Below are positions 40,207 to 63,430 of a stretch of 64,000 nt of DNA, piece after piece; the stretch's first letter is position 1, and every line of letters begins with the position of its first letter. The stretch is taken from assembly GCF_002831685.1 (NCBI RefSeq), contig NZ_CP025119.1, positions 1,151,001 to 1,215,000 on the forward strand, given 5' to 3'. The DNA comes from Polaribacter sp. ALD11 (GTDB lineage Bacteria > Bacteroidota > Bacteroidia > Flavobacteriales > Flavobacteriaceae). Below the pieces are notes generated by a model that saw nothing but the letters and a program-made list of their open reading frames with translations, had not been told where the DNA came from and ran no database searches. Position numbers and translations under genes: made by a program.

Positions 40207-41364
40207 ATGAAAAAATTACCAACTATATTTTTAGAACAAAAAAATCACAAAAAGGCTCCTCAACTTCTTGTCAAGTTTAATTATAATAATTCTTTGATAA
40301 ATTTGTTGAGAAAAATCCCTGGGACTAATTGGAGTAGCTCTTTAAAATCCTGGTACATAGCTAACTCTAAAGAAAATTTAGATTTAGTTTTAAATACTTT
40401 TAAAAGCATCACAATTATTGATTCGAGTAAGTTGCCTAAAAAAGAGCCATTCAAACGAAATTTAACTGAGAGTCAAAAAAAACTTTTGAATAATTTCTAC
40501 TTGTACTTAAAAGGGAAAAGATATAGTCAGAGCACCATACAGACTTACACTTTCTTTGTTGCAGATTTCGTTAATTTTCATACAAAAACTTCTTTAGAAG
40601 AGTTAAAAAACAGAGATGTTGAACTTTTTATTGAAAGAGTCTTTATAGAACGAGATTATTCTATTAGTTCTCAAAGACAATTTATAAGTGCTTTAAAGAT
40701 ATTTATAATTTTTTATCCTCACACAAAAATTAATGACTTGGTATTAGAAAGACCAAAAAAATCTAGAAAACTTCCTAATGTTTTATCTCAAGAAGAGGTG
40801 TTAGAAATCATTAGATGTACACAAAACTTAAAACACAGAGCTATTTTAGCGTTAATTTATTCTTGTGGATTAAGAATAAGTGAGTTAATAAATTTAGAGT
40901 TGATAGATTTTCATATTGAAAGAAAACAGTTAATTGTAAAAAACGGAAAGGGAAGAAAAGACAGGTACGTGAGTTTAGCAGATAGTTTTTTACCTTTATT
41001 ATCAAACTATTACCATTCTTACAAACCAAAAAAATACTTTGTTGAAGGTAGAAATGGCGGAAAATATAGTACAGAAAGTGTAAGACAATTTTTAAGAAAA
41101 AGTTGTGCCAATGCTCAAATAAAAAAAACAGTTACACCACACACGTTAAGACATAGCTACGCTACTCATTTATTAGAAAACGGAGTAGATATAAGATATA
41201 TACAATCACTTTTAGGACATGCAAAGCCAGAAACTACAATGATTTATACACATGTAAAGCGTAAAGATTTAATGCAAATTCAAAACCCCTTGGACGTTGC
41301 GCTACAGAAGCTAAATAAAATAGATAAAGACAATGAAAATGTTTTATTATCCCGAAATATTTAA
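40207..41364 (+). CDS. Tyrosine recombinase associated with the cassette array (candidate integron integrase)
   Basis: At 385 residues it has an N-terminal extra module of about 85 residues (KAPQLLVKFNYNNSLINLL ... WYIANSKENLD), a SAM-like core-binding domain (LYLKGKRYSQSTIQTYTFF, about 98-117) and a catalytic domain with all six catalytic residues: R223 (GLRISEL), K248 (GKGRKDR), H312 and R315 (HTLRHSYATHLL), H338 (LLGHAKPETT) and Y347 (MIYTHV). The end IYTHV-x9-NPLD recalls IntI (IYTHV...SPLD), but the stretch between K248 and H312 is only 63 residues and has no sign of the extra IntI-specific helix-containing insertion. It is co-directional with the cassettes, whose first crossover core lies 34 bases after its stop. 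A XerC/D-like housekeeping role is less likely given the array. Confidence 0.85.
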   Translation: MKKLPTIFLEQKNHKKAPQLLVKFNYNNSLINLLRKIPGTNWSSSLKSWYIANSKENLDLVLNTFKSITIIDSSKLPKKEPFKRNLTESQKKLLNNFYLYLKGKRYSQSTIQTYTFFVADFVNFHTKTSLEELKNRDVELFIERVFIERDYSISSQRQFISALKIFIIFYPHTKINDLVLERPKKSRKLPNVLSQEEVLEIIRCTQNLKHRAILALIYSCGLRISELINLELIDFHIERKQLIVKNGKGRKDRYVSLADSFLPLLSNYYHSYKPKKYFVEGRNGGKYSTESVRQFLRKSCANAQIKKTVTPHTLRHSYATHLLENGVDIRYIQSLLGHAKPETTMIYTHVKRKDLMQIQNPLDVALQKLNKIDKDNENVLLSRNI

Positions 41365-41404
41365 CCAAAAATCAATATATTTGATTTTATATAACCCGTT
41401 GGGC
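41365..41404 (+). other. Candidate attI-like integration site
   Basis: The 33 bases between the recombinase stop and the first core, plus the core GTTGGGC (41398-41404), occupy the position of attI in integrons with a co-directional integrase. No long dyad like the downstream sites is present upstream of the core, as expected for attI. Assignment is by position only. Confidence 0.5.
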
Positions 41405-41433
41405 AACATTACCAATCACACTCAAAAAAAGGA

Positions 41434-41928
41434 ATGAAAGAAAATGAAATAATTAAATACCTTGATATAGTTTTTAAAGACATTACTAATTTTGAATCGG
41501 TTTCTGTAAATAACCCTATTATGAAGGTTCTGAAACACGAAACAGAAGAAGAGCGAGATAAATTCTTCTTAGTCGTAGAGAGTGTTGAATTATTTGCAAA
41601 AAACAAAGATTTGATAAAAAAGGACGGAGATGGGGATTTTTTTAAATTAACAGATAGAGGGAGGAAACTTAAAGAGTCAAACTCATCATATAAATCATTT
41701 TGTTTTAAGGAGAAAATAAGGTCTGCCGATTTTAAAAAATTAGCAATATTAATAGCTATCATTGGAATTATTTTAAGAATTGTTTGGAGGTGTGAGGACA
41801 GTCAGAAAGTTCAGCTTCCAAATAATAAACACGGGATTTTAAACGACTCTTTGTCTGAAAAGCCATATAATAAAAATCAAAATACAAGTAAGTCATTATT
41901 AGATACATTAGAAACCAAAAAGGAATAA
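41434..41928 (+). CDS. Cassette 1: wHTH-like single-pass membrane protein
   Basis: This 164-residue protein has an N-terminal part resembling a winged helix (IIKYLDIVFKDI ... GDGDFFKLTDRGRKLKES), one membrane helix (FKKLAILIAIIGIILRIVW) and a hydrophilic tail. Family not recognised. Its leader (GGGCAACATTACCAATCACA) is the same as in cassette 21, which carries an unrelated ORF. Confidence 0.65.
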   Translation: MKENEIIKYLDIVFKDITNFESVSVNNPIMKVLKHETEEERDKFFLVVESVELFAKNKDLIKKDGDGDFFKLTDRGRKLKESNSSYKSFCFKEKIRSADFKKLAILIAIIGIILRIVWRCEDSQKVQLPNNKHGILNDSLSEKPYNKNQNTSKSLLDTLETKKE

Positions 41929-41960
41929 TTTTAAATATATTTATGGTGGATTTAAACGTT

Positions 41961-42093
41961 GCCCAACACCGTGTATAAAAAATTACTGCTTTTTGCCTCA
42001 CTCCTTGTTCCATTTTTTTCTGTTTTTTTTATTAATTAATCGGAAATTATACGCTTATTTATTCGTAAATTTCCATACACAAATACGTTAGGC
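41961..42093 (+). repeat. attC-like site 1
   Basis: 5' box GCCCAAC, 3' core GTTAGGC; outer stem GTGTAT/ATACAC. The centre is irregular and fits neither major class. Confidence 0.75.
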
Positions 42094-42108
42094 ACAATAG
42101 ACCTAAAA

Positions 42109-42513
42109 ATGAAAACAAAATTAAACTTTTTACTTTTAAGCGTATTCTTCGTTCTGAATTCTTGTTGCCTTGGCGCAGATGAGGAATATTTAGGAAATAA
42201 CATTTATTTGTCTTCATATGATAATTACGATAAACGAATATTATATCAAGAATATAGTTGTGCAACAACAGGAACTGAAATAGTTCCTATGACAGTTTTG
42301 AAAATGTCTTATAACTCTGAATGGATTATTGCTAAATCTGGAAACAAAAGGGAGAAAACGGATTTTAAATATTGGGTAATTAAAAACGATTATGAAAGTT
42401 TGCCTAATTCTGAAACTATACTAAAAAACCGAATTGAATTCAGTGACTTGAAAAAGTTTGAACTCTATTTAGCAGAAAATAAAATTAGTTTGGAATTGAA
42501 AAAAAATGACTGA
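42109..42513 (+). CDS. Cassette 2: lipoprotein, DUF3997-like
   Basis: A lipoprotein signal (MKTKLNFLLLSVFFVLNSC) precedes a 115-residue domain: NNIYLSSYDNYDKRILYQEYS and VLKMSYNSEWIIAKSGNKRE recall DUF3997 lipoproteins. The whole cassette, including attC, is duplicated exactly by eye as cassette 16 (51799-52365). Confidence 0.7.
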   Translation: MKTKLNFLLLSVFFVLNSCCLGADEEYLGNNIYLSSYDNYDKRILYQEYSCATTGTEIVPMTVLKMSYNSEWIIAKSGNKREKTDFKYWVIKNDYESLPNSETILKNRIEFSDLKKFELYLAENKISLELKKND

Positions 42514-42527
42514 AAATAAAAAACTGT

Positions 42528-42660
42528 GCCTAACACCGTATATAATTTATTGCTAATTCTAGCCTACTTACGAAAGTCCTCGCGGACTTTCTTAGTCGGT
42601 AATTATTTACTAAATTAGGTGCTAGAAACACGCAACAAACCATATACAAACACGTTGGCA
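42528..42660 (+). repeat. attC-like site 2 (class A)
   Basis: 5' box GCCTAAC, 3' core GTTGGCA; stems GTATAT/ATATAC and TTGC/GCAA, apical hairpin GAAAGTCC-TCGC-GGACTTTC. Confidence 0.85.
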
Positions 42661-43103
42661 AAAACTGGTTGAAAGTCGCCAGAAAAACATAAGTTATTTA
42701 AATAAAGGTTTTGCTTAAAATTTGTGATTCAAAATTCTTTAATCTTATTACGTCGAAAAAATAAAAACTTAGAATATTGAAAACTCTCTCGCTCGTTAAA
42801 ATTTGTAAAAGGGGAAAGTATTAGAATTTTAATAACAAGAATTTACTCAAACGCTGAAAAACCAAAATTGCGGAATTTAGTAAAATACTGGAATTCTTAC
42901 TCAAGTTCTGAATTTAGCAAGTTTGCGGAATTGAACAAATTGTGGAATTTTTACTCTTGTGAAAAATTGGAGTAAAATCCCAAAGTAAAAAATTAAACAC
43001 TTTTAAAAGAAAAGTTTAGAACTGTATCTTATAAAAAAGGAAAATAATTTAAGAAGAAATAGAAAATTATAGAAAAAATTAAGCGGAAATTAAAACACGC
43101 ATT
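42655..43103 (+). other. Cassette 3: ORF-less cassette, family A
   Basis: Starts GTTGGCAAAAACTGGTTGAA. No ORF above 60 codons. Contains repeated GCGGAATT-type motifs. It is the same length as and looks identical to cassette 15 (578 bases with its attC). Confidence 0.8.
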
Positions 43104-43238
43104 TGCCAACACCGTTTATAAAAAATTGCTAAATTAGTGCTTAACTAAAAGTTCGTTGCGTTTTTGTGTACTTCTGATTTTCCGTTGGAAAATCCTCGCA
43201 CACAAAACCGCAACTTTCCATAAACAAACTCGTTGGCA
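43104..43238 (+). repeat. attC-like site 3 (class B)
   Basis: 5' box TGCCAAC, 3' core GTTGGCA; stem GTTTAT/ATAAAC, long inner stem TTGCG..TTTGTGT with ACACAAAACCGCAA, apical hairpin GATTTTCC/GGAAAATC. Confidence 0.85.
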
Positions 43239-43258
43239 GTAATTAAAGAACATAAACT

Positions 43259-43687
43259 ATGATAAAACAAATTTCGAGATTTTTTCAATCTATTTTAATA
43301 TTAATCGGACTTCAATCTTGCGGAGAAATAACTACAACGAAGAACTTTCAAAACGGACAAAAAAATTTAGTTGTATTCTCTGATTATGGAAGTAAAACCG
43401 ATACAATAATTGAGAATGTTAATGAACATCAGATTAAAACTGCTATGAATAAAATTGACTGGAAAAATTACCATATGGTTTACATCGAAAAAAACATTGG
43501 AGAAATGATTGGTGTATTAGGCTTGACAGAAGATGACGGAATAACACCTGCTGGATTGACTTCGACTTGGGACGAAAATGGAAAAATGTTAGTGATGAAA
43601 AATGAACCGAAAACTATTGAGGAATTGACAAATATTTTGATTTCTTATCTGAATGACGATACGGAATTGAAAAGCAAATATGAATAA
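43259..43687 (+). CDS. Cassette 4: small lipoprotein
   Basis: A lipoprotein signal peptide (FFQSILILIGLQSC, lipidated Cys about 21) precedes a 120-residue soluble domain with DYGSKTDTIIENVNEHQIKTAM and a tryptophan-containing DWKNYHMVYIEKN. Family not recognised. Last residues YE* are followed at once by the attC box. Confidence 0.65.
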   Translation: MIKQISRFFQSILILIGLQSCGEITTTKNFQNGQKNLVVFSDYGSKTDTIIENVNEHQIKTAMNKIDWKNYHMVYIEKNIGEMIGVLGLTEDDGITPAGLTSTWDENGKMLVMKNEPKTIEELTNILISYLNDDTELKSKYE

Positions 43688-43694
43688 AAACTAC

Positions 43695-43826
43695 TGCCAA
43701 CACAGTATAAAAATAATTGCTATTTTAGGCTTAAACAAAGGTAGTTGCACTTTTGTTACGTCTGATTTTCCTGCGGAAAATCCTCGCACACAAAACCGCA
43801 ACTATTCTTATACATAAACGTTGGCA
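43695..43826 (+). repeat. attC-like site 4 (class B-like)
   Basis: 5' box TGCCAAC, 3' core GTTGGCA; CAGTATAA outer arm and apical GATTTTCC-TGC-GGAAAATC. Confidence 0.8.
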
Positions 43827-43857
43827 CAAATAAACCAATCACTCTGAAAATGAAAAT

Positions 43858-44277
43858 ATGATTGACTTTGAGAAAATACCTAAAAAATTAAAATACCATT
43901 TAATAAATTTAGTATTAATCCCTTTTTGGATTATTTCTATATATTTATTTGGGAATGAATTATACATAGCGAATGATTTTTTAATTATTAGTTGCTTATG
44001 TTTTTGTTTAACACTCTGTTCTTATATTGTTTCAAGTTTTTTAATTAGTCTATGGAATTTTAATCCTGAAGTTAAAAAAAAGGAATTAATAATATTTTCT
44101 ATATTTTTTCAAACAATGTTTTTATCAGCTTTGATTTTTTTAGGCTACGTATTTAACTTAATTTGTAAATTAAAGTTTGAATTTTACTCTTTTATTATTA
44201 CTTATTTTGTATCAATATCCTTACTACTTTTTATTGGTAAGTTTGGAAAAATAAATTGGGAAAGAAAAAAGTCATAA
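43858..44277 (+). CDS. Cassette 5: four-helix membrane protein
   Basis: This 139-residue protein has four hydrophobic segments (LIPFWIISIYLFG, FLIISCLCFCLTLCSYIVSSFLI, IIFSIFFQTMFLSALIFLGYVF, YSFIITYFVSISLLLFIG). No family recognised. A second ATG eight bases upstream opens onto an immediate stop. Leader resembles those of cassettes 1 and 21. Confidence 0.6.
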   Translation: MIDFEKIPKKLKYHLINLVLIPFWIISIYLFGNELYIANDFLIISCLCFCLTLCSYIVSSFLISLWNFNPEVKKKELIIFSIFFQTMFLSALIFLGYVFNLICKLKFEFYSFIITYFVSISLLLFIGKFGKINWERKKS

Positions 44278-44356
44278 ATGAAATAATACAGATACACATA
44301 ATCAAGTAAAGTATTAAAATATAGAACAAATTATTAAACACGAATGAAATTACTTG

Positions 44357-44489
44357 TGCCAACACCGTGCATAATTTAATGCTTACTTTTTTCCACTTTG
44401 GAAAAGTCTCGTTTACTTCTACTTTTGTTTTTTTTTCTATCCATTTTTTTCTTAATTTTCGCATCAAACCATGCACAAATACGTTACCC
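44357..44489 (+). repeat. attC-like site 5 (divergent)
   Basis: 5' box TGCCAAC, 3' core GTTACCC; outer stem GTGCAT/ATGCAC shows compensatory change from GTATAT/ATATAC. The apex is T-rich and imperfect. Confidence 0.75.
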
Positions 44490-44501
44490 ACAATTTGAAA
44501 A

Positions 44502-45059
44502 ATGACGTACAGAATAACAAAATTTGACCCTAAAAAAAGAAATGAAGAAGGTCATTTTCTAGATAATTCCGAATGGACATCGATTAGCGATATAGGAAAA
44601 CCTGAATATAGAAATGTGAGTTATGAAGAATATGATAAAATAGAAACGGCATATGTCGAATCTATTATACTTATTCTTGACGAAAAAAAAATAAAAAGTA
44701 TACAAATTGACTCATTAGAATTACACGATACATTAGCTGATTTTGAAGAATATAAAAAAGAAAGTCGTCTAAAGAATATTGATGTTGATTTTAATACTGA
44801 AATTTCCACTTTGGAAAACGGAAATATTCTGAATTTAACACAGGTTCAAAAAATGACTCGTTTGGTTTTAAGAGAAACTATTTGGATGAACTTACTCGAA
44901 TCTGAATTTAAAATAATTTTCGGATATGACTATTATATGTATGTTGAGTGTTCAGAATTAAAAAATTCGACTATAAATCGAATTGAGAAAATGGGACTTT
45001 TTGTCGAGCCAAATATGGGACAAAAGATAATTATAATAAGTGATGAAAAAGGAAAATAA
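44502..45059 (+). CDS. Cassette 6: conserved hypothetical protein
   Basis: This 185-residue soluble protein starts MTYRITKFDPKKRNEEGHF and contains SEWTSISDIGKPEYRNVSYEEYD, a pattern I associate with unnamed Bacteroidota proteins. No signal or membrane segment. Possibly an immunity-type protein, but I cannot show it. Confidence 0.65.
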   Translation: MTYRITKFDPKKRNEEGHFLDNSEWTSISDIGKPEYRNVSYEEYDKIETAYVESIILILDEKKIKSIQIDSLELHDTLADFEEYKKESRLKNIDVDFNTEISTLENGNILNLTQVQKMTRLVLRETIWMNLLESEFKIIFGYDYYMYVECSELKNSTINRIEKMGLFVEPNMGQKIIIISDEKGK

Positions 45060-45066
45060 AAACTGT

Positions 45067-45199
45067 GGGTAACACCGTATATAATTTATTGCTAGTGCTA
45101 GCCTATTTACGAAAATCCTTAGGGGATTTTCTATTCGGTTTTTATTTACTAAATTAGTTGCTCGAAATACGCAACAAATAATATACAAAAACGTTGGCA
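45067..45199 (+). repeat. attC-like site 6 (class A)
   Basis: 5' box GGGTAAC, 3' core GTTGGCA; stem GTATAT/ATATAC; apical hairpin GAAAATCC/GGATTTTC. Confidence 0.85.
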
Positions 45200-45247
45200 T
45201 TAATATAAGCGACGACCTCGAGTTACACCACCTTTAATAAATGATTT

Positions 45248-45742
45248 ATGATAATTGGGGAAAAGTTTCACAAGCTTTGCGAAAAACTTGAAATTGGAAA
45301 ATGGGAATTTAATTTCCTTAAAAGAGAATTTATTTTGTCGTTTGAAGAAGTTCATAAACTTGATGATTTAAAAATTGTTTTTAATGGTGAAAACGGAGCT
45401 TTTGTTTTAGGAAATTCTCACGATTATGGTGGAATACATTTAATACAATTAGATGTAGAAAGAAAAATTGTAAAATATGCTGGAGAAATGGAAGGTTTTG
45501 AATATTTATCTTCACCTATAAAATCTGAATTACAGAAAAAAGAATTTTTAGAAATAAACAAACTAACTCCTGAAATAGACGATTTAAAGGAATTAATTAT
45601 CCCGAAAAATTGCAATCTAATTGACACACGAAATATTGAAGTTCCTGTTATTTTAGTTTCTATATATGAACAATTCATATTTAATAAAAAATCATCGATT
45701 AAAAACATTGAGAAAATTATTGAAATTGAAAAAAAATACTAA
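45248..45742 (+). CDS. Cassette 7: hypothetical protein
   Basis: This 164-residue soluble protein contains EFILSFEEVHKLDDLKIVF and HDYGGIHLIQLDVERKIVKYAGE. No membrane segments. The stop codon overlaps the start of the attC by none but touches it. Family unknown; an immunity-like fold would be a guess. Confidence 0.6.
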   Translation: MIIGEKFHKLCEKLEIGKWEFNFLKREFILSFEEVHKLDDLKIVFNGENGAFVLGNSHDYGGIHLIQLDVERKIVKYAGEMEGFEYLSSPIKSELQKKEFLEINKLTPEIDDLKELIIPKNCNLIDTRNIEVPVILVSIYEQFIFNKKSSIKNIEKIIEIEKKY

Positions 45743-45877
45743 TGCCAACACCGTACAAAATTAATTGCTTTATTTCTGGCTCACTTACGAAAGTACTCAC
45801 GTACTTTCTTTGTCTGTTATTATTTAGTAAATTAACTGCTTAACCGCCGCAAAAAATCTTGTACAAACACGTTAGCA
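45743..45877 (+). repeat. attC-like site 7 (class A)
   Basis: 5' box TGCCAAC, 3' core GTTAGCA; outer stem GTAC/GTAC; apical hairpin GAAAGTAC/GTACTTTC, which is compensatory to the GTCC/GGAC of other sites. Confidence 0.8.
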
Positions 45878-45900
45878 GTTATTTAAAAACCGAACACGAA

Positions 45901-46455
45901 ATGAACTTTCAACTAAATGGAAAAACAGGAATTTGGTTAAATAAACTTAACGAAAAAACTGTTGAAAAAATATATCAAGTAGATTTTAACAACGATAGAC
46001 ATAATGACGAATATTTACCTTGGATATTTTTAATAACTTTCTGTGAATTTGACCTATATCTGGAAATTGAAGGCAACTTTGATGGAAGTCATTTAAAAAT
46101 AAACTTACGAGAAACTTCATTACTTGAAAATAAACTGAAAGAACACAATTTACCTAATGAACCCGATTTGTGGCAAGTTTACACAACTAAAAAAGAAGAG
46201 AAACTTGGGAGCATTTTAGGACAAAGAATTGATTTTATTGAATTCGGAGTTGATAAGGATGAATATGAAATTAACGGAATTAAAAGCAAAGGAGAAAAAG
46301 AATATTTTAATTTTATTCGCTTTAATTGTGAAAAACTGAATTTAACAATTTTCGAAGGCTCATCAACTGGACTTGGAGTTTCTACCGACAAAAATGTGAA
46401 ATTAAATTTTGAGGAAACATTTGAAATATATAATACGAAAAAAAACAACTGCTAA
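45901..46455 (+). CDS. Cassette 8: hypothetical protein, paralogue of cassette 29
   Basis: Start at ATG 45901; an earlier TTG lies in the preceding attC and outside the cassette. The 184-residue protein shares KIYQVDFN, DYLPW-type (EYLPWIFLITF), EIEGNFDGSHLKINL, DLWQVYTTKK and LTIFEG with the product of cassette 29. Soluble, acidic, family unknown. The stop overlaps the attC box. Confidence 0.7.
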   Translation: MNFQLNGKTGIWLNKLNEKTVEKIYQVDFNNDRHNDEYLPWIFLITFCEFDLYLEIEGNFDGSHLKINLRETSLLENKLKEHNLPNEPDLWQVYTTKKEEKLGSILGQRIDFIEFGVDKDEYEINGIKSKGEKEYFNFIRFNCEKLNLTIFEGSSTGLGVSTDKNVKLNFEETFEIYNTKKNNC

Positions 46456-46583
46456 CACCGTATATAATTTATTGCTGGCTTATTGCCTACTTACGAAAGT
46501 CCTCGCGGACTTTCTTGGTTGGTAATTATTTACTAAATTAGTTGCTTGAAACATGCAACAAACCATATACAACAACGTTACAA
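46450..46583 (+). repeat. attC-like site 8 (class A)
   Basis: 5' box TGCTAAC, 3' core GTTACAA; stem GTATAT/ATATAC; apical GAAAGTCC/GGACTTTC. Confidence 0.85.
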
Positions 46584-46617
46584 AACATTAAAAACCAATA
46601 TTATGAAAACCAATACT

Positions 46618-47238
46618 ATGAAGAAAAACTTAATTATTCTATTTTTAACTTTTACATCAATTTTGACTTATGCGCAAAATAATCAATCCGATTTTTTAAT
46701 TAAGAAAGGAAATGATACTGTTTTTTGTAAAATAATTGAGTTAAAAGGAAAAAAAGTTAAGTTTATTGAAAGTGGTGAAAACAAAAGTAAAAAGAAAAAT
46801 ATTTTCAAATTCTCTAATGTTAATATTTCTGACTTATCAGTTGTTAAAAATCCATTGAATTTGAAAGTTGAAAAACCTGAAAAAGGATTCGCACATATTT
46901 ACCTTTATAGACCATATGTATATACTGGATCAGCATTAGCCTGTAAAGTTGAATATAATGGAGAAAAATTCATTAATATTAAAACCTATAGTTATTACTT
47001 ACATAAGGTTAAAGCAGGAGAAGTTCATAAGTATAATTGGAAAAACAGCAAAAAGGATATTTTAGAAATTGATGCTAAAGATGGGGAGACCTACTTCATA
47101 AGAGGTTCATTTGGAGCAAGTTTTGAGCCTTGGAATACTATCTCAAGTGTTAGTAACGGAATGAATATTTTTCTTGACAATCCAAATACAGCAAAGTATG
47201 CAATTTTAACAATGAAAAAAGAAAGCCCAAAATATTAA
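46618..47238 (+). CDS. Cassette 9a: exported DUF2846-like protein
   Basis: The ATG at 46618 begins a clean signal peptide (MKKNLIILFLTFTSILTYAQ); an ATG 15 bases earlier is possible. The mature domain has KGFAHIYLYRPYVYTGSALACKVEYNGEKF and DGETYFIRGSFGASFEPW, resembling DUF2846. It is followed four bases later by a tiny lipoprotein gene in the same cassette. Confidence 0.68.
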   Translation: MKKNLIILFLTFTSILTYAQNNQSDFLIKKGNDTVFCKIIELKGKKVKFIESGENKSKKKNIFKFSNVNISDLSVVKNPLNLKVEKPEKGFAHIYLYRPYVYTGSALACKVEYNGEKFINIKTYSYYLHKVKAGEVHKYNWKNSKKDILEIDAKDGETYFIRGSFGASFEPWNTISSVSNGMNIFLDNPNTAKYAILTMKKESPKY

Positions 47239-47241
47239 ATT

Positions 47242-47382: not shown

Positions 47383-47395
47383 GGAATAAAACGTT

Positions 47396-56395: not shown

Positions 56396-56472
56396 TCATA
56401 ATATTTTAATTTTAACTCATTCTCTTTAAAATTGGCGGAATGAAAAACCATAATCTGAATAAAAAAAACGTT

Positions 56473-56605: not shown

Positions 56606-57051
56606 AAAACTGGTTGAAAGTCGCCAGAATAACATCAGTCATTTAAATAAAGGTTTTGCTTAAAATTTCTGATTCAAAATTCTTTAATCTTATTACGTCG
56701 AAAAAACAAAAATTTAGAATATTGAAAACTCTCTCGCTCGTTGAAATTTGTAAAAATGGGAAAGTATTAGAATTTTTATAATAAAAATTTACTCAAACGC
56801 TGAAAAACCAAAATTGCGGAATTTAATAAAATACTGGAATTCTTACTCAAGTTCTGAATTTAGCAAGTTTGCGGAATTGAACAAATTGTGGAATTTTTAC
56901 TGTTCTGAAAAATTGGAGCAAAATCCCAAAGTAAAAAATTAAACACTTTTAAAAGAAAAATTTAGAACTGTATATTATAAAAAAAAGGAAAATAATTTAA
57001 GAAGAAGTAGAAAATTTTAGAAAAAATTAAGCGGAAATTAAAACACGCATT
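56600..57051 (+). other. Cassette 22: ORF-less cassette, family A
   Basis: Fifth copy of family A, with small changes (CATCAGTCATTTAAATAAAG). Confidence 0.8.
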
Positions 57052-57185
57052 TGCCAACACCGTTTATAAAAAATTGCTAAATTAGTGCTTAACTAAAAGT
57101 TCGTTGCATTTTATGTACTTCTGATTTTCCGTTGGAAAATCCTCGCACACAAAACCGCAACTTTCCATAAACAAACTCGTTGGCA
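57052..57185 (+). repeat. attC-like site 22 (class B)
   Basis: 5' box TGCCAAC, 3' core GTTGGCA; same fold as site 3. Confidence 0.85.
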
Positions 57186-57206
57186 ATAATTAAAAAAAAT
57201 TGAAAA

Positions 57207-57494
57207 ATGAACGAAATTTTTAGAAAGAAATATTTAATGTGGTGGTTTGTTAATTCTTTAGTTATAGGATTAAAAATCATTATTTTTGGACTTAAACCTG
57301 GAGGAATTGGAGAAATGCCAGGTTACGAAGAATATGGATTAATATTCTGGATTATTGGAGTTCAATTCTCAAGTATTATTTTTTCACTACCTATTTATGG
57401 AATATATTATTTATTTAAAAGAAAAAGCAACAACAAATTATTAATGATATTAATTTCTACAATAAGTTTATTAACAATTGTTTTTTTATTATAA
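57207..57494 (+). CDS. Cassette 23a: small membrane protein
   Basis: This 95-residue protein has three hydrophobic helices (WWFVNSLVIGLKIIIFGL, GLIFWIIGVQFSSIIFSLPI, LLMILISTISLLTIVFLL). It begins a tricistronic membrane-protein cassette with gaps of three bases between genes. Family unknown. Confidence 0.6.
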   Translation: MNEIFRKKYLMWWFVNSLVIGLKIIIFGLKPGGIGEMPGYEEYGLIFWIIGVQFSSIIFSLPIYGIYYLFKRKSNNKLLMILISTISLLTIVFLL

Positions 57495-57497
57495 TTT

Positions 57498-57737
57498 ATG
57501 ATTTTTAAATATTCTGAAATTAATAAAAACAAAATAGGATATATACTTGGACTTATTTATACAGTATATTTTAACATAAACGGAAGAGGTGATTTAGCAG
57601 TAATGAATTCAATAGCATACTCAATTCCTTTTATTTTGTTTAATTTAATCATAAGCTACATTATCTCAAAATTAATTAAGGACCAAAATCACGGAATTTA
57701 TTTTTGTCTTATAAGTCTAATCTACTTAAACTTTTAA
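57498..57737 (+). CDS. Cassette 23b: small membrane protein
   Basis: This 79-residue protein has two or three hydrophobic helices (IGYILGLIYTVYFNI, NSIAYSIPFILFNLIISYII, GIYFCLISLIYLNF). It starts three bases after 23a. Confidence 0.55.
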   Translation: MIFKYSEINKNKIGYILGLIYTVYFNINGRGDLAVMNSIAYSIPFILFNLIISYIISKLIKDQNHGIYFCLISLIYLNF

Positions 57738-57740
57738 ATA

Positions 57741-58223
57741 ATGAGAAATTCATACAGATTAATATTGACGAATATCTTTTTTTTAGCAATTGGTTTAACT
57801 TTATACTATTTTACTAAAAATATAGAAATATTAGGGGCAATTATTGCAACTGGAATTTCTCTTTCAATTGGCTTAAGGAATTCACAAGCTGAAAATGACC
57901 GAATTTTCAAAGAATTATTTCAAGAATTTAATTCAAAATATCAATCAAAATTCAATAAAGAACTTCAAAAAATTGTAAATACTGAAATATCTACTGAACA
58001 AGAAGAACTGATAATTGACTATTTAAATTTTTGTGCTGAAGAATACCTTTGGTACACAAAGGGAAGAATCCCAATAAAAGTTTGGGAATCTTGGAAAAAC
58101 GGAATGATATATTATTTAAATTCGGCTTCAATAAATAGAATTATACAAAATGAATTTAAAAAGAAAAATTCTTATTATGGATTATTTGAAATACTTGAAA
58201 AAGAACTGAAAATAACAAAATAA
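57741..58223 (+). CDS. Cassette 23c: membrane protein with a cytoplasmic domain
   Basis: This 160-residue protein has two hydrophobic segments (LILTNIFFLAIGLTLYYF, LGAIIATGISLSIGL), then a soluble domain with IDYLNFCAEEYLWYTKGRIPIK and VWESWKNGMIYYL. This W/Y-rich motif recurs in unnamed bacterial proteins. It completes the cassette's three-gene membrane set. Confidence 0.6.
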   Translation: MRNSYRLILTNIFFLAIGLTLYYFTKNIEILGAIIATGISLSIGLRNSQAENDRIFKELFQEFNSKYQSKFNKELQKIVNTEISTEQEELIIDYLNFCAEEYLWYTKGRIPIKVWESWKNGMIYYLNSASINRIIQNEFKKKNSYYGLFEILEKELKITK

Positions 58224-58227
58224 CTAT

Positions 58228-58358
58228 TGCCAACACCGTATAAAATTAATGGCTAGTCCTAGCCTACTTACGAAAATCCTTGCGGATTTTCTATCTCGTG
58301 TTTATTTGCTAAATTAGGTGCTTAAACACGCCACTAATCTTATACAAACACGTTGGCA
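58228..58358 (+). repeat. attC-like site 23 (class A)
   Basis: 5' box TGCCAAC, 3' core GTTGGCA; outer arm GTATAA/TTATAC; apical GAAAATCC-TTGC-GGATTTTC. Confidence 0.85.
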
Positions 58359-58433
58359 ACTATTACTCACTCAAAGTCTGAAAATTGAACTTGAAATTTG
58401 AAAAACTCACAAAGAAAATTTTTACATCAACAA

Positions 58434-58949
58434 ATGAAAGGTTGGAATAATATTAGGAAAGTAATTTTGCTTCTATTGGCAATATCTTGCTCTTTGAACA
58501 ATAAGACTATAATTAACGCTGACTTTGAAAAATTATTAGAAAATTATATCGAAAATAATCCTATACCAAAATATTTGGAATCAAATGAGGAAGGAAAATT
58601 TGCAATTCCATCTTACCATCTTTATTTTGGAAAAAAAGAATCTGACTCGATTATTCAAATTAAACTTCTTCCTTTTTTAGTTGGTTTTAATCCACTAAAT
58701 TCTAAAATTGACAATGAAGGTGAAGAAATTATTACGGAGGAAAACCCTGATGGTTATTTTGTATTTAGAGAAAAGTTAATAGTAGTTTTTGACAAAAATA
58801 ATTACGGAATAAATATTATAGATGGAAACAAATTAATTAAGAAAATACCAGATAGTCTGAAATGGGATTTTAACAAACATAATAATCACATAAGAAGTAA
58901 ATCGAATTATTATAATATATCTAAACAGAAAATTGAAATTATTGAATAA
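58434..58949 (+). CDS. Cassette 24: lipoprotein of unknown function
   Basis: The ATG at 58434 (MKGWNNIRKVILLLLAISC) gives a lipoprotein signal; a TTG 12 codons earlier is less likely. The 150-residue mature part is mostly hydrophilic with a YHLYFGKKESDSIIQIKLLP segment. Family not recognised. Confidence 0.62.
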   Translation: MKGWNNIRKVILLLLAISCSLNNKTIINADFEKLLENYIENNPIPKYLESNEEGKFAIPSYHLYFGKKESDSIIQIKLLPFLVGFNPLNSKIDNEGEEIITEENPDGYFVFREKLIVVFDKNNYGINIIDGNKLIKKIPDSLKWDFNKHNNHIRSKSNYYNISKQKIEIIE

Positions 58950-58968
58950 AAAAACAGTTGCCAACACC

Positions 58969-59091
58969 GTATAAACTTTATTGCTGGTTTTAGCTCACTT
59001 GGGAAATTCCTTCGGAATTTCGCCGTTCGTGTTTTATTTAGTAAATTCATTGCCTAAACAACGCAACAAAGCTTATACAACAACGTTGGCA
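58969..59091 (+). repeat. attC-like site 24 (class A variant)
   Basis: 5' box TGCCAAC, 3' core GTTGGCA; shorter site; apical hairpin GAAATTCC-TTC-GGAATTTC. Confidence 0.82.
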
Positions 59092-59549
59092 AAAACTGGT
59101 TGAAAGTCGCAAAAAAAACATAAGTTATTTAAATAAAGGTTTTGCCTAAAATTTCTGATTCAAAATTCTGATTCAAAATTCTTTAATCTTATTACGTCGA
59201 AAAAACAAAAATTTAGAATATTGAAAACTCTCTCGCTCGTGAAAATTTGTAAAAAAGGGAAAGTATTAGAATTTTAATAACAAGAATTTACTCAAACGCT
59301 GAAAAACCAAAATTGCGGAATTTAATAAAATACTGGATTTCTTACTCAAGTTCTGAATTTAGCAAGTTTGCGGAATTGAACAAATTGTGGAGTTTTTACT
59401 CTTGTGAAAAATTAGAGCAAAATCCCAAAGTAAAAAATTAAACACTTTTAAAAGAAAAATTTAGAACTGTACCTTCTAAAAAAAGGAAAATATTTTAAGA
59501 AGAAGTAGAAAATTATAGAAAAAATTAAGCGGAAATTAAAATACGCATT
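59086..59549 (+). other. Cassette 25: ORF-less cassette, family A
   Basis: Sixth copy of family A; it carries a short internal duplication TGATTCAAAATTC. Confidence 0.8.
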
Positions 59550-59684
59550 TGCCAACACCGTTTATAAAAAATTGCTAAATTAGTGCTTAACTAAAAGTTC
59601 GTTGCGTTTTTATGTACTTCTGATTTTCCGTTGGAAAATCCTCGCACACAAAACCGCAACTTTCCATAAACAAACTCGTTGCCA
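59550..59684 (+). repeat. attC-like site 25 (class B)
   Basis: 5' box TGCCAAC, 3' core GTTGCCA; same fold as site 3. Confidence 0.85.
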
Positions 59685-60059
59685 AAAATTGTCCAGATCA
59701 CTCAAATTCCTGAAAAAATTAGCGAATAAAACTCTTGAATTTTAAATGTTAGAGACTCTCTCAATGTTGGAAAGTTGAGAAAAATGAAAAAAGCATTACG
59801 GAATTGAGCAAAATGCGGAATAAAAACTTTGCGGAATTATCTCAAAAGTGTAAAATTTTGAAAGACTGAGAGTTTTCTGAGAATCAAACAATATTTAAAA
59901 TTGTTTGCGGAATTAAACACGTGAGAAAACACTCAAACTCTGAAAAACAAAAATAGCGGAATTTAACAATTGTAGAATTAAAAATAGTGGCGGAATTTTC
60001 ACTCGAACGCTAAATCTCGAAAATAATAAGCAAATTCGGAAAAATAAAAAAACAACTTT
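59679..60059 (+). other. Cassette 26: ORF-less cassette, family B
   Basis: Begins GTTGCCAAAAATTGTCC. No credible ORF. Contains at least six GCGGAATT-type words and phrases such as AAAACACTCAAACTCTGAAA shared with cassette 31, of which it is a relative. Confidence 0.75.
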
Positions 60060-60194
60060 AGGCAACAACGTGTATAAAAAATTGCTTATTTTTAGCTTGT
60101 AAAAAGTTAGTTCCATTTTTATGCACTTCAATTTTCCTACGGAAAATAGCCGTGCATAAAAATCGCAACTTTCCATAACACAAATCCGTTGGCA
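60060..60194 (+). repeat. attC-like site 26 (class B-like)
   Basis: 5' box AGGCAAC (box context AACAACG instead of AACACCG), 3' core GTTGGCA; outer arm GTGTAT; apical ATTTTCC-TAC-GGAAAAT. Confidence 0.78.
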
Positions 60195-60640
60195 AAAACT
60201 GGTTGAAAGTCACCACAAAAACATAAGTCATTTAAATAAAGGTTTTGCTTAAAATTTCTGATTCAAAATTCTTTAATCTTATTACGGCGAAAAAATAAAA
60301 ATTCAGAATATTGAAAACTCTCTCGCTCGTTAAAATTTGTAAAAAGGGGAAATTATTAGAATTTTAATAGCAAGAGTTAACTCAAACGCTGAAAAACCAA
60401 AATTGCGGAATTTAATAAAATACTGGAATTCTTACTAAAGTTCTGAATTTAGCAAGTTTGCGGAATTGAACAAATTGTGGATTTTTTACTCTTGTGAAAA
60501 ATTGGAGCAAAATCCCAAAGTAAAAAACTCAAGCACTTTTAAAAGAAAAATTTAGAACTGTGTCTTATAAAAAAAGGAAAATAATTTAAGAAGAAGTAGA
60601 AAATTATAGAAAAAATTAAGCGGAAATTAAAACACGCATT
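60189..60640 (+). other. Cassette 27: ORF-less cassette, family A
   Basis: Seventh copy of family A, with scattered substitutions. Confidence 0.8.
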
Positions 60641-60775
60641 TGCCAACACCGTTTATAAAAAATTGCTAAATTAGTGCTTAACTAAAAGTTCGTTGCGTTT
60701 TTATGTACTTCTGATTTTCCGTTGGAAAATCCTCGCACACAAAACCGCAACTTTCCATAAACAAACTCGTTGTGC
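60641..60775 (+). repeat. attC-like site 27 (class B)
   Basis: 5' box TGCCAAC, 3' core GTTGTGC; same fold as site 3. Confidence 0.85.
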
Positions 60776-60806
60776 CACATTACGCACTCGAAAATCTGAA
60801 AAATAC

Positions 60807-61262
60807 ATGAAAGAAAACATCAAATTCAGTAAAGAAGACACATTATACCTAAACAATCTCATAAAAAAAATAGAAGACCTTGAAAAATATAATGATACTG
60901 AAAAAAATAATATAACAAGGAATATTATCACAATATTAGTTGGTTTAATTTCTGTATTAGTAGCTTTTAAAGGAGTAAATAGTCCTTACACTCACGTTCA
61001 CTTATTGTTTTCGGCAACCCTGATAAGTATATCTCTCGCAATCCTTTCGGGTATCGTTTCTTTATTTCGTCAAGTTGAAGAATCACATCGGATTTTAATG
61101 TTCCAACGGGAAAATTTATCACGTAGATTGAACGGGAATCTACACGAAAAATTCGAAAAAGATTTTCCTCCGAAAAAAATGTTTTTAATTTTTGAATATT
61201 TGTTTTATATTTTTTCTTCATTGTCAATTGTTTTACTAGCTATGTATGGAATTTTGAAATAA
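60807..61262 (+). CDS. Cassette 28: membrane protein with coiled coil
   Basis: The ATG at 60807 is inside the cassette; an upstream in-frame start would lie in attC 27. The 151-residue protein has an N-terminal coiled-coil (YLNNLIKKIEDLEKYNDTEK), two membrane helices in the middle (IITILVGLISVLVAFKGV, LLFSATLISISLAILSGIVSLF) and a third at the C-terminus. Family unknown. Its trailer resembles that of cassette 21. Confidence 0.62.
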   Translation: MKENIKFSKEDTLYLNNLIKKIEDLEKYNDTEKNNITRNIITILVGLISVLVAFKGVNSPYTHVHLLFSATLISISLAILSGIVSLFRQVEESHRILMFQRENLSRRLNGNLHEKFEKDFPPKKMFLIFEYLFYIFSSLSIVLLAMYGILK

Positions 61263-61342
61263 ATCATCATAACAACACATTTTAAAAAACTCATTCATTT
61301 TAATATTGGCAGAATGAAAAACCATTTACTGAATAAAACGTG

Positions 61343-61473
61343 GCACAACACCGTATAAAATTTATTGCTAATTATCAACTATTTACGAAAATTATTACTG
61401 ATTTTTTGCCACTTTTTTTTAACCTAAATCAGTAATGATTTTCGCAACAAATCTTATACAAAAAACGTTGGCA
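61343..61473 (+). repeat. attC-like site 28 (class A variant)
   Basis: 5' box GCACAAC, 3' core GTTGGCA; outer arm GTATAA/TTATAC; long extra stem CGAAAATTATTACTGATTT with AAATCAGTAATGATTTTCG. Confidence 0.82.
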
Positions 61474-61497
61474 TTAATTAAAAAAACGAACACCAAA

Positions 61498-62019
61498 TTG
61501 AAATCTAACAACTTTATTAATCAAATCGTAGGAAAAACAGTTGATAAAATTTATCAAGTGGATTTCAATGAAAATAAAGATAATGACGATTACCTTCCTT
61601 GGACTTTTTTCATAACGTTTTCCGAATTTGATATGTTTATGGAAATTGAAGGAGATTTCGATGGAGACCATATAAAAATAAATCTGAACCAACTTTCGGA
61701 ACTTAAACAAAGACTGGAAAAGAATGAATTACGAAACGAATCTGATTTATGGCAAGTTTATGAAGTTAAAGAAAATGAAAATCTCGGAGAATTAATTAAT
61801 AAACCAATCTTAAAATGTGAATACGGAATTGAAAAGGATGAGTTTACTATAAATGAGAATAAAATAAAAGGACAAAAGGAAGTCTTTACATTTATCCGAT
61901 TTTATTATGAAAAATCGTTTTTGACAATCTTTGAAGGTGGTTGCGGACTTTCAGTTTCGGAGGCCCAAAATATCAAGCTGAATTTTGAAGAAACATTTGA
62001 CAAATATTTAGCGGAATAA
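61498..62019 (+). CDS. Cassette 29: hypothetical protein, paralogue of cassette 8
   Basis: Start at TTG 61498: the leader CGAACACCAAATTG aligns with CGAACACGAAATG of cassette 8, so TTG stands exactly where cassette 8 has ATG. An ATG at 61435 lies in the previous attC. The 173-residue product shares KIYQVDFN, DYLPWTFFITF, EIEGDFDGDHIKINL, DLWQVY and LTIFEGG with cassette 8. Family unknown. Confidence 0.65.
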   Translation: MKSNNFINQIVGKTVDKIYQVDFNENKDNDDYLPWTFFITFSEFDMFMEIEGDFDGDHIKINLNQLSELKQRLEKNELRNESDLWQVYEVKENENLGELINKPILKCEYGIEKDEFTINENKIKGQKEVFTFIRFYYEKSFLTIFEGGCGLSVSEAQNIKLNFEETFDKYLAE

Positions 62020-62037
62020 AAAACTAATGCCAACACC

Positions 62038-62161
62038 GTATATAATTTATTGCTGGCTTTTCGACTACTTACGAAAGTCCTCGCGAACTTTCTTGGTCGG
62101 TAATTATTTACTAAATTAGTTACTTAAAACACGCAACAAACCATATACAACAACGTTAGCA
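62038..62161 (+). repeat. attC-like site 29 (class A)
   Basis: 5' box TGCCAAC, 3' core GTTAGCA; stem GTATAT/ATATAC; apical GAAAGTCC with GAACTTTC (one mismatch). Confidence 0.85.
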
Positions 62162-62166
62162 ATTAT

Positions 62167-62874
62167 ATGACCAAACCAACAGAAATACCGATTATTGATT
62201 ATGCAGAATTTCTATTATTCGGAATTGAATTTTCTTTGGTTGATTTTAAAAAATATCAAACTACAATTGAGAATTTTTTAGACAAAGAGAAAAAGTCATT
62301 GGACGAATCGTATAATAAAAGTCTGGCAGAATTAGACCAAGATGACTATAAAAAATATAATCAAATAGCAAAAGACTATTATTATAGAAGTGGAGATATT
62401 GCAACCTTATTTCCTCATAATTTTAGAGCATCGTTTTTAGTACAAATAATAACTTTTATTGAACACGAATTGAAATTAATTTGTGAACATTACGAATTTG
62501 AAAAACAAACGAAATATTCTATTAACGACTTGAAAGGAACTAATGATATTGAGAAAGCAAAACAGTTTCTAGAGAAATCTTGCAACGTAAATTTCCGAAA
62601 TTTGGACAAAGAGTGGCAATTTATTTTGAAAATAAAACGAATTAGGAATAAATTAATCCATTCTCAAGGATTTGTAAAGAAAACAGAAAAGGATTGGAAA
62701 GTATTTAATGATTTTAATAATAAATTAAAATATTTTGACTTCAGTCCAAAAGGAGAATTAGTAGAAGAGCCAAAATTGATAATTAAGAACAGATTACTGA
62801 TTGACGATTTATTAAAAGTAACAGAAGATTTTTTTAATAAACTATTAGGAAAAGAATTAAAATACAATTGCTAA
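62167..62874 (+). CDS. Cassette 30: HEPN-like protein
   Basis: This 235-residue helical protein starts MTKPTEIPIIDYAEFLLFGI and has FRASFLVQIITFIEHELKLI and KIKRIRNKLIHSQGFVKK, an R-N-x3-H motif typical of HEPN domains. No antitoxin partner is in the cassette. Possible RNase or defence protein. The stop codon overlaps the attC box. Confidence 0.65.
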   Translation: MTKPTEIPIIDYAEFLLFGIEFSLVDFKKYQTTIENFLDKEKKSLDESYNKSLAELDQDDYKKYNQIAKDYYYRSGDIATLFPHNFRASFLVQIITFIEHELKLICEHYEFEKQTKYSINDLKGTNDIEKAKQFLEKSCNVNFRNLDKEWQFILKIKRIRNKLIHSQGFVKKTEKDWKVFNDFNNKLKYFDFSPKGELVEEPKLIIKNRLLIDDLLKVTEDFFNKLLGKELKYNC

Positions 62875-62999
62875 CACCGTATATAATTTATTGCTAGTAC
62901 TCGCCTACTTACGAAAATCCTTAGGGATTTTCTATTCCGTTTTATTTACTAAATTTAGTGCTTCAAAAACGCAACAAACCATATACAAAAACGTTACCA
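62869..62999 (+). repeat. attC-like site 30 (class A)
   Basis: 5' box TGCTAAC, 3' core GTTACCA; stem GTATAT/ATATAC; apical GAAAATCC/GGGATTTTC. Confidence 0.85.
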
Positions 63000-63401
63000 A
63001 AAATAGCTCAATCATTCAAATCCTGAATTTAAAATAGCATTTAAAATTGCGGAACACTCTCTGAAGATTGGAAAATTCTGAAAGAATTTTGTTTACATTT
63101 TTGAGAATTTAGAAAAATAAAAAGTAAAAACTGAGCAGTGTGGAATTGAGCAAAATGCGGAGTAAAATCTGTGTAAAATTATCTTTAAAACGAAAACTCA
63201 GAAAGGCTGAGAATTTCTTTAAAATCAAAAAAAAAAGTAAAAATTATTGGCGGAATTAAGCATGTAAGAAAACACTCAAACGCTGAAAAACCAAAATTGC
63301 GGAATTGAGCAAGATGTGGAATTAAAATATTGGCGGAATTTTCACTCTAACGCTGAATTTAGAAAATAATAAGAAAAATTGGAAAATAAAAAAACTACTT
63401 T
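62994..63401 (+). other. Cassette 31: ORF-less last cassette, family B
   Basis: Begins GTTACCAAAAATAGC. No ORF. Shares phrases with cassette 26 (GCGGAATT-AAGC, AACACTCAAACGCTGAAAAA, AATATTGGCGGAATTTTCAC). Its own end box TGGTAAC is truncated. Confidence 0.75.
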
Positions 63402-63430
63402 TGGTAACACCGTGTTGTGTAAGCAACACC
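63402..63430 (+). repeat. Truncated attC-like remnant, array end
   Basis: TGGTAACACCG at 63402 is cut after CGTG and followed at 63423 by a second box-like GCAACACC-CTGTAT. No complete site follows. Confidence 0.6.

Follow-up and report, generated by a model that had tools for sequence, protein, structure and literature searches.

Organisation of the cassette array

The window (the whole 64,000-nt stretch of DNA analysed) carries on its + strand the gene of a 385-aa tyrosine recombinase (40207..41364), the likely cassette integrase, from which the IntI-specific segment is absent. It is followed by an attI-like left arm, CAATATATTTGATTTTATATAACCC-G^TT (41365..41400, +), whose GTT follows the recombinase stop codon at a distance of 33 nt, and by 31 cassette units 3' of the recombinase. 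Thirty units end in a complete dyad site (134–138 nt core to core); only the left end of the 31st site is present, from 63406 on, because an insert of ~14 kb splits it. The original prediction of a 31-cassette array with a dyad site closing every unit was therefore right about the 31 units behind a tyrosine recombinase and about 30 of the sites, but not about the last site or the end at 63430. The array continues past the window, with ~104 sites over 110 kb in a single orientation, making it about three times larger. A covariance model gave 104 matches (103 once the two matches to a site cut by a stretch border are counted as one), all on one strand at chromosome positions 1192955–1303042, and nhmmer on the joined stretch found 104 sites, 103 of them near full length. 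The array occupies ~110 kb of the 3.57-Mb genome. Nine of 13 named loci are Polaribacter, in agreement with the proposed Flavobacteriaceae host.

Each cassette opens with GTT and 7 further nt, and its end is the reverse complement of that opening. In the window this complementarity spans 9–10 nt in 30/31 cassettes and 6 nt in one, and the pairing sum (288, with cassette 1 scored zero) exceeds the maximum of 178 seen in 10,000 permutations. Across the whole array, own start and end pair over at least 9 nt in 91/104 cassettes and over 6–8 nt in three, giving a sum of 926 against a permutation mean of 451 and maximum of 510: the pairing of the ends is not due to chance. There are 58 distinct 10-mers at the cassette ends of the whole array. 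Cores of adjacent cassettes pair by a mean of 4.4 nt in the window and only 4.25 nt overall, so sites in their array form fold less well. We rejected a one-way ratchet arising from such mismatched sites, as IntI arrays have the same cassette-specific ends. Two candidate hallmarks of the array were rejected as well. The core consensus GTTRRRY fits 8/104 cores, but the Bacteroidota IntI arrays examined deviate from it too; long own-end pairing is also present in Bacteroidota IntI arrays, and is thus an integron trait rather than one special to the I2-less family.

All cassettes of the window lie on the + strand, as do the ORFs assigned to them, bearing out the prediction that all coding units share one strand. 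Single ORFs without further annotation are found in cassettes 1 (41398..42086; ORF 41434-41928, attC 41958-42093), 4 (43232..43819; ORF 43259-43687, attC 43692-43826), 5 (43820..44482; ORF 43858-44277, attC 44354-44489), 6 (44483..45192; ORF 44502-45059, attC 45064-45199), 7 (45193..45870; ORF 45248-45742, attC 45740-45877), 8 (45871..46576; ORF within 45859-46455, attC 46447-46583), 12 (48881..49604; ORF 49201-49467, attC 49475-49611), 16 (51798..52364; ORF 51820-52224, attC 52236-52371), 18 (53309..54366; ORF within 53274-54230, attC 54237-54373), 21 (55847..56598; ORF 55886-56395, attC 56470-56605), 24 (58352..59084; ORF 58398-58949, attC 58956-59091), 28 (60769..61466; ORF within 60693-61262, attC 61340-61473) and 29 (61467..62154; ORF within 61435-62019, attC 62025-62161), while cassette 23 has three (57179..58351; ORFs 57207-58223, attC 58225-58358). 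More can be said of cassettes 2 (42087..42653; lipoprotein-like ORF 42109-42513, attC 42525-42660), 9 (46577..47520; DUF2846 ORF 46603-47238, attC 47393-47527), 11 (48093..48880; DUF6933 ORF 48134-48685, attC 48753-48887), 13 (49605..50647; ORF 49617-50513 with a weak DUF5677 match, attC 50518-50654), 17 (52365..53308; ORF 52404-53177 with a weak HEPN match, attC 53179-53315), 19 (54367..55269; candidate anti-phage protein PDC-S32 at 54412-55140, attC 55141-55276) and 30 (62155..62992; ORF 62167-62874, HEPN-like by eye only, attC 62866-62999). No + strand ORF of at least 50 aa is listed for cassette 10 (47521..48092; attC 47964-48099), and cassette 26 (59678..60187; attC 60057-60194) is the one with 6-nt own-end pairing.

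One noncoding family, GTTGGCAAAA, accounts for 7/31 window cassettes: 3 (42654..43231; attC 43101-43238), 14 (50648..51219; attC 51089-51226), 15 (51220..51797; attC 51667-51804), 20 (55270..55846; attC 55716-55853), 22 (56599..57178; attC 57049-57185), 25 (59085..59677; attC 59547-59684) and 27 (60188..60768; attC 60638-60775). A second, GTTACCAAAA, forms cassette 31 (62993..63414), whose attC is cut by the insert after AACACCGTG. Over the whole array, noncoding cassettes occur in 22 copies at 94–100% identity, and the noncoding cassette had no Rfam match. An ORF of at least 60 aa is missing from 43/102 cassettes, and 18 of the 20 cassette proteins tested matched no Pfam family above its cut-off. 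Duplicates at 99% identity lie at distant positions (cassettes 2 and 16; 11 and 54). Cassettes 64 and 71 match the genome of another genus, the match beginning 0–3 nt from the cassette start.

A TATAAC-type arm is found 33 nt after the recombinase stop in 15/51 loci and at 27–42 nt in six more, and by its position this arm may function as attI. Conserved cassette content, which would speak against an integron, was not seen as far as this comparison goes: in 15 loci of relatives, no two of the cassettes next to the attI position agree in both core and length.

A recombinase without the I2 segment, sister to IntI

The recombinase consists of an N-terminal bbabbab domain (residues 7–75 of the model), a SAM-like domain and a catalytic domain. 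Catalytic-type residues are invariant in 33 aligned family rows, and the C-terminal stretch YTHV...PL is similar between the recombinase and IntI. It scored 202.5 bits against the integron integrase model TIGR02249, whose cut-off is 265. The best NCBIfam score was to the archaeal XerA model NF040815 (218.1, cut-off 220), a name that is not specific, since the genome's own XerD also passes it (229); the best fold matches of the recombinase model were likewise archaeal XerA (4A8E, 5HXY). Six Pfam integrases are present in the host genome, among them one over the XerD cut-off, one XerC-like protein below cut-off and three with little or no match.

I2 is a 20-residue helix. The integron-integrase-specific segment (I2/patch III), tested here as the 42-residue difference around I2 rather than as I2 alone, is absent from 49/49 family sequences and present in 25/25 Bacteroidota IntI. 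The AlphaFold model has a 16-residue link at the I2 position. In the alignment to VchIntIA (2A3V), recombinase residues 269–292 stand for chain residues 181–247, a stretch that on our reading holds most of the listed contacts to extrahelical bases (PMC3053210).

In the tree, the I2-less family was supported at 97/95 and was sister to IntI at 98/90; the IntI rows were monophyletic (100/100) with the family outside them. The topology holding the family together with VchIntIA was rejected (p-AU 0.0005), and the one placing it with XerA instead of IntI gave a p-AU of 0.027. By parsimony, this tree suggests a later gain of I2 on the IntI branch. The I2-less recombinase platform may preserve the condition before I2, which the literature describes as missing.

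Predicted folding of the attC sites

The attC arms covary, with compensatory changes in 12/22 consensus pairs. The bottom strand was predicted to be the better folder in 91/91 own circle-form sites, and in 7/7, 6/6, 4/4 and 4/6 sites of four distant loci. An extrahelical bulge was predicted in 3/77 own sites (none in 74/77) compared with 13/13 IntI-linked sites, a control of three arrays with 16 sites of which 13 were walked; in a less strictly chosen set of ten IntI loci, 22/30 sites had a bulge. For the four distant loci the counts were 0/7, 2/6, 0/4 and 2/4, and in 20 further loci 90/95 sites had no predicted bulge and 5/95 had one. Almost all tested sites are predicted to be without extrahelical bases. 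The asymmetric spacer between R and L is mostly 4,0 in IntI sites and 3,0 in own sites.

Linkage of sites to the recombinase family in Bacteroidota

Homologous sites do occur elsewhere: 65 partly overlapping loci hold 246 sites downstream of and co-oriented with the same recombinase, none in the opposite orientation and seven upstream (all in L054), placing 246/253 on its 3' side. Sites were absent from 18/65 loci. In 15 of the 18 the downstream sequence is no longer than 1.5 kb; it is longer in the other three, L057 (10 kb), L097 (2 kb) and L098 (14 kb). Among 20 distant loci, 13 had an R1 match at E 0.01 (many weak), L172 had a clear chain and six had neither; the plasmid members L178, L181 and L182 had no array. 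When one mismatch was allowed, the chain detector gave much noise, shuffle maxima reaching 10, so we relied on exact 9-mers; six of 30 loci lay at least 3 above their shuffle maximum (L091, L092, L099, L162, L172 and L175). The IntI loci sequence is mostly 5' (~12 kb, with 3 kb 3'), so that the sides on which arrays lie cannot be fairly compared for IntI.

With one genome sampled per species, R2 sites were present in 90/99 Bacteroidota genomes with a family recombinase, leaving nine without, and in 96/296 genomes without a hit (odds ratio 20.8). Among 116 congeners, with counts of 27 or more scored as 27, the 51 genomes that have a close recombinase had a median of 26 sites, the 20 that have a distant one a median of 17.5, and the 45 that have neither a median of 5. 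A conserved chromosomal home was rejected: the three upstream window genes were found in 1/19 loci (L057, on the 3' side of an array-less recombinase), a weak test because ten of the 19 hold less than 3 kb of upstream sequence. No attC match was found in phages by blastn; the model found one site (62.7 bits) in Polaribacter phage P12002L, which may differ from the one recombined by IntI1. Separately, a truncated family member lies ~190 nt upstream of tet(X3) with a GTT-type core between them, and no matching own end was found that would make tet(X3) a cassette.

Proposed mechanism and alternatives

We consider it probable, with good confidence, that the locus is an integron-like array of cassettes whose recombinase, though without I2, would capture circular cassettes at the adjacent attI-like site, likely cutting G^TT of single-stranded attC hairpins. 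The neighbouring recombinase would be the enzyme acting on the array. The attC bottom strand would fold as a hairpin and be cut at G^TT, new circular cassettes would enter at the attI-like site, and replication would resolve the junction. In a system with neither I2 nor extrahelical bases, the strand would be chosen through the one-sided bulge of 3–4 nt that separates the R stem from the L stem and makes the bottom strand fold better.

That the recombinase instead works on double-stranded attC in a Xer/Cre-like manner, with two strand exchanges and an incidental hairpin, appears unlikely. The two features published as blocking the second strand exchange are indeed missing or almost so, and the fold matches are to XerA; but cassette-specific end complementarity would serve no obvious purpose if the site were double-stranded, the two attC arms are separated by a long stretch, and the one-sided bulge favours folding of one strand in 91/91 sites. 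An IntI integron whose integrase lost I2 and whose sites then lost extrahelical bases would explain the sister relationship, the same G^TT core and the similar R–L spacer. We regard this as quite unlikely given the monophyly of IntI and the rejected grouping with VchIntIA; I2 might still have been lost before the sampled IntI split, at the cost of one additional step if the outgroup is formed by Xer recombinases, which have no I2.

It is very improbable that the neighbouring recombinase is a bystander and that the cassettes are moved by a regular IntI encoded at another place in the genome, or by one gained and then lost. Bona fide IntI occurs in 105/395 Bacteroidota genomes, and one of the attC sites predicted in a Polaribacter phage served as a substrate for IntI1 (according to excerpts of PMC9892861). 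However, no IntI was found in the host genome at 1e-70 and none of its six Pfam integrases reaches the IntI cut-off, R2 sites are not enriched with IntI (38/106 IntI genomes; 14/79 with IntI only), and in 64/65 loci with data sites are only 3' of the family recombinase or absent. Just as hard to credit is that the arrays are fossils of a system no longer active. A stop lies inside the aligned stretch in 15/77 congener recombinase matches, some probably at the gene's own end, and many cassettes are without a 60-aa ORF; yet 62/77 matches have no such stop, the catalytic-type residues are invariant in the aligned rows, duplicates at 99% identity lie at distant positions, the noncoding copies are near-identical, and first cassettes differ among relatives.

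Published statements, in the portions available of PMC7790495 and PMC4792948, treat I2 and single-strand recombination as exclusive to integron integrases, with intermediates lacking, and raise the puzzle of how I2 was selected before attC, or attC before I2. A sister family with arrays and without either feature makes this question testable. Pipelines that require an IntI domain (excerpts of PMC9668308) would miss this integrase, and the extent of cassette capture in Bacteroidota has therefore probably been underestimated. A search of openly licensed PMC papers, a scope that makes it a weak test, returned no published account of I2-less cassette arrays. The array likely represents a second, overlooked kind of gene-capturing integron, which would help show how integrons evolved. 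More tentatively, and as somewhat less likely than not, we propose a phylum-wide second integron class in Bacteroidota with single-stranded capture that needs neither I2 helix nor extrahelical bases, a living counterpart of the pre-I2 state: hairpin cassettes would have come first, and the lock of I2 and extrahelical bases later. If true, this would resolve the chicken-and-egg problem.

Comparison with known systems

The family shares with archaeal XerA the best NCBIfam score, the best fold match and the lack of I2, but it is followed by cassette arrays and falls with IntI in the tree. Xer recombinases resolve chromosome dimers at one dif site, with no cassette array, whereas arrays lie behind this family, and the host has a separate XerD over cut-off and an XerC-like protein. 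CALINs differ in having no integrase (excerpts of PMC9892861). The predicted likeness to a sedentary chromosomal integron is supported: common to both are the order of recombinase, attI position and same-strand cassettes with attC-like ends, a large one-strand array beside one recombinase, the G^TT core, own-end complementarity, and dyad attC with an asymmetric unpaired spacer and a better-folding bottom strand. The Vibrio cholerae superintegron (IntI, attI, attC) is an example of such an integron. Membership of that known family does not hold, and we do not call the array a classical integron, because its recombinase is without I2, below the IntI cut-off and sister to IntI, and its sites are nearly all predicted to be without extrahelical bases. 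In addition, the recombinase has an extra N-terminal domain, and the array lies 3' of and co-directional with it rather than 5' of a divergent intI, although IntI integrons with a reversed arrangement exist.

Extent and layout of the array

At 33 nt past the stop codon of the recombinase gene (40207-41364 (+), 385 aa) comes a GTT core and after it, within the window, 31 cassettes, 30 of them with complete attC-like ends; this bears out the predicted order of recombinase, core at the attI position and cassettes with attC-like ends. The predicted 31-cassette array is present with its layout, but the true array is about three times as long: a covariance model built from 26 of the 30 window sites gave 104 matches over 140 kb of the chromosome (one site being counted twice at a stretch border), as did nhmmer on the joined stretch. 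Matches in the main array lie on a single strand throughout, from 1192955 to 1303042, with only the first third inside the window. A second cluster of 16 sites, on one strand, was seen far from the recombinase, at 656-689 kb of the genome (L195, L196). Inside attC 31 lies an element of ~14 kb (window 63415-64000, on to genome position 1228498; L059), flanked by the repeat AACACCGTG; it encodes a tyrosine integrase and three proteins that, judged by eye, resemble a methyltransferase (900 aa), a helicase and a GIY-YIG protein.

Anatomy and content of the cassettes

Every cassette opens with GTT and seven further bases that vary, and this same stretch returns in reverse complement at its end. This own-end pairing spans 9-10 nt in 30 of the 31 window cassettes and 6 nt in one; over the whole array it is at least 9 nt in 91 of 104, 6-8 nt in 3 and below 6 nt in 10 (among these, some reflect the script's choice of a neighbouring GTT or AAC, and one is due to the insert). 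Summed over the whole array, the pairing was 926, against a mean of 451 and a maximum of 510 in 10,000 permutations; neighbouring cores there pair over a mean of 4.25 nt. Since own-end complementarity is also found in IntI arrays, we regard it as a marker of integron-type cassettes in general.

Similarity between copies of one cassette spans the entire unit: the 99.2% identity of cassettes 2 and 16 sets in 23 nt ahead of the start and runs 4 nt beyond the next GTT, and the 98.8% identity of cassettes 11 and 54 sets in 8 nt ahead of the start and runs 11 nt beyond the next GTT. Matches to a genome of another genus begin exactly at the cassette start (cassette 71) or 1-3 nt before it (cassette 64); for cassettes 48 and 80, congener matches extend into the preceding site. 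When 101 cassettes were compared with 53 loci from other genomes, which cover only parts of the arrays there, only seven were matched over 60% of their length.

No ORF of 60 aa was found in 43 of 102 cassettes. One noncoding cassette has been amplified to 22 copies that are 94-100% identical (cassettes 3, 14, 15, 20, 22, 25 and 27, plus 15 more beyond the window); its consensus holds no ORF above 26 aa, and its window copies had no Rfam match. A second noncoding family has at least 7 copies. Two of 20 cassette proteins passed the Pfam gathering cut-off (DUF2846 and DUF6933), and PADLOC gave one strong match among 10, PDC-S32 (1.2e-78), a candidate phage-defence protein encoded at 54412-55140 in cassette 19.

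Linkage of sites to the recombinase

At 65 recombinase loci, which partly overlap and whose sites are not independent, we counted 246 co-oriented sites downstream of the gene, 0 in the opposite orientation and 7 upstream. All seven upstream sites are in Tenacibaculum pelagium (L054), where recombinase copies lie near the ends of three contigs (L046, L053, L054). No site was present at 18 loci, of which 15 offered 1.5 kb or less of downstream sequence. At 15 of 51 loci the stop codon is followed by a TATAAC-type arm whose GTT lies 33 nt away, and the first cassettes there all differ in core or length (13 distinct cores). At L057, where the recombinase has no array, the tRNA-Met neighbourhood known from the window adjoins the 3' side of the recombinase.

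The proposed covariance-type search of related genomes was productive: sites of model R1 were found in 109 of 116 congeners and the recombinase (1e-60) in 71, with site counts tracking recombinase presence. Among 395 Bacteroidota genomes, the recombinase (1e-50) occurred in 99, sites of model R2 in 186 and IntI over the cut-off in 105 (106 at the E limit). R2 sites were found in 90 of 99 genomes with the recombinase versus 96 of 296 without (odds ratio 20.8; the R2 training sites lay beside the family, in part in genomes of this sample, and relatives among the genomes do not count independently). Split further, they occurred in 66 of 72 recombinase-only genomes, 24 of 27 with both, 14 of 79 IntI-only and 82 of 217 with neither; no association with IntI was seen among the 395.

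Arrays from other families and classes were resolved at L099, L162, L172 and L175, with end-to-next-start spacings of 114-121 nt and one of 79. Of 20 distant loci, 13 had an R1 match and six neither a match nor a clear chain. Near-identical attC sequences occur at L099, L162 and L172, whose genomes differ in family and class, a likeness that suggests long-range cassette exchange. One R1-type site lies in Polaribacter phage P12002L (L177 14496-14634, 62.7 bits). In an Acinetobacter and an uncultured-bacterium plasmid (L179, L180), tet(X3) is preceded at a distance of ~190 nt by a truncated family member (44% identity).

The recombinase lacks the I2 segment

The recombinase fell below every NCBIfam cut-off (integrase_gron 202.5 versus 265; XerA_Arch 218.1 versus 220). 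It is one of six Pfam integrases in its genome; of the others, one is a XerD above the cut-off, one is XerC-like below it, and three match NCBIfam models barely or not at all over the sequence supplied. R223, K248, H312, R315, H338 and Y347, which we take to be the catalytic-type residues, are invariant across 33 aligned rows.

In the alignment, residues 269-292 stand opposite VchIntIA chain 181-247. The slice around I2, the segment specific to integron integrases, has 75-76 residues in 49 of 49 family sequences and 117 in 25 of 25 Bacteroidota IntI (MAFFT). Extrahelical bases, the flipped-out bulged bases read by IntI, are contacted in VchIntIA by Q145, W157, K209, Y210, W219, P232, H240 and H241, according to PMC3053210; by our reading of the alignment, K209, Y210, W219, P232, H240 and H241 fall in the stretch missing here. 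In the AlphaFold model (mean pLDDT 83.0, pTM 0.53, leaving domain placement unsure), helices 259-272 and 289-302 are joined by a short link, and residues 7-75 (40225-40431) form an N-terminal bbabbab domain. This domain, HARP-like in motif only, is shared by the majority of the aligned rows in either branch and is shortened in L172 and L173. The best solved-structure matches of the model were XerA, then VchIntIA.

Folding of the attC-like sites

Of the 22 base pairs in the consensus fold of the sites, 12 show compensatory changes. The 91 own sites with pairing of at least 9 nt were folded as they would stand in a circle, a cassette's end being joined to its own start; in every one of them the bottom strand gave the better fold of the two. 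Their R-L stem spacer is mostly a one-sided bulge of 3-4 nt, with none on the other side; IntI-linked attCs of Bacteroidota have a similar spacer, mostly 4,0. These show in addition at least one bulged base on the other arm in 13 of 13 walked sites (from 16 sites at 3 of the 10 IntI loci fetched), and in 22 of 30 in a looser set from all ten loci, whose chains are partly chance. Of the 91 own sites, 77 were walked and 3 of these have such a bulge; the counts are 0/7, 2/6, 0/4 and 2/4 at L099, L162, L172 and L175, and 5 of 95 walked sites (from 105) at 20 further loci. All these figures are minimum-free-energy predictions, and they predict that extrahelical bases are nearly absent from the sites linked to the present recombinase family.

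A sister family to IntI

In a tree of 56 rows, including IntI1, cyanobacterial IntI, VchIntIA without its insert, two archaeal XerA and XerD, the recombinase family (97/95) and the IntI sequences (100/100) each form one clade, and these two clades group as sisters with support of 98/90, with Xer rows as outgroup by assumption and some branches long. Grouping the family with XerA (p-AU 0.027), XerC/D (p-AU 0.025) or VchIntIA (p-AU 0.0005) was rejected. Since the Xer outgroup has no I2, the shortest account would be a single gain on the IntI branch; the I2-less family may retain the ancestral state.

Comparison with integrons

At the sequence level, we consider the cassette anatomy, the recombinase linkage, the absence of the I2 segment and the sister position to IntI demonstrated. 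The adjoining I2-less recombinase would be the enzyme that moves the cassettes, probably recombining the bottom strand of attC; cassettes would pass through circle intermediates, and the recombination junction may be resolved replicatively. We call the array a variant of the integron, an integron-like platform whose recombinase has no I2. The original prediction of a sedentary integron thus stands as regards integron-like organisation and probable working but fails on two tested defining features: compared with the integron family, the array recombinase lacks the I2 segment, and nearly all of the tested sites are predicted to lack extrahelical bases.
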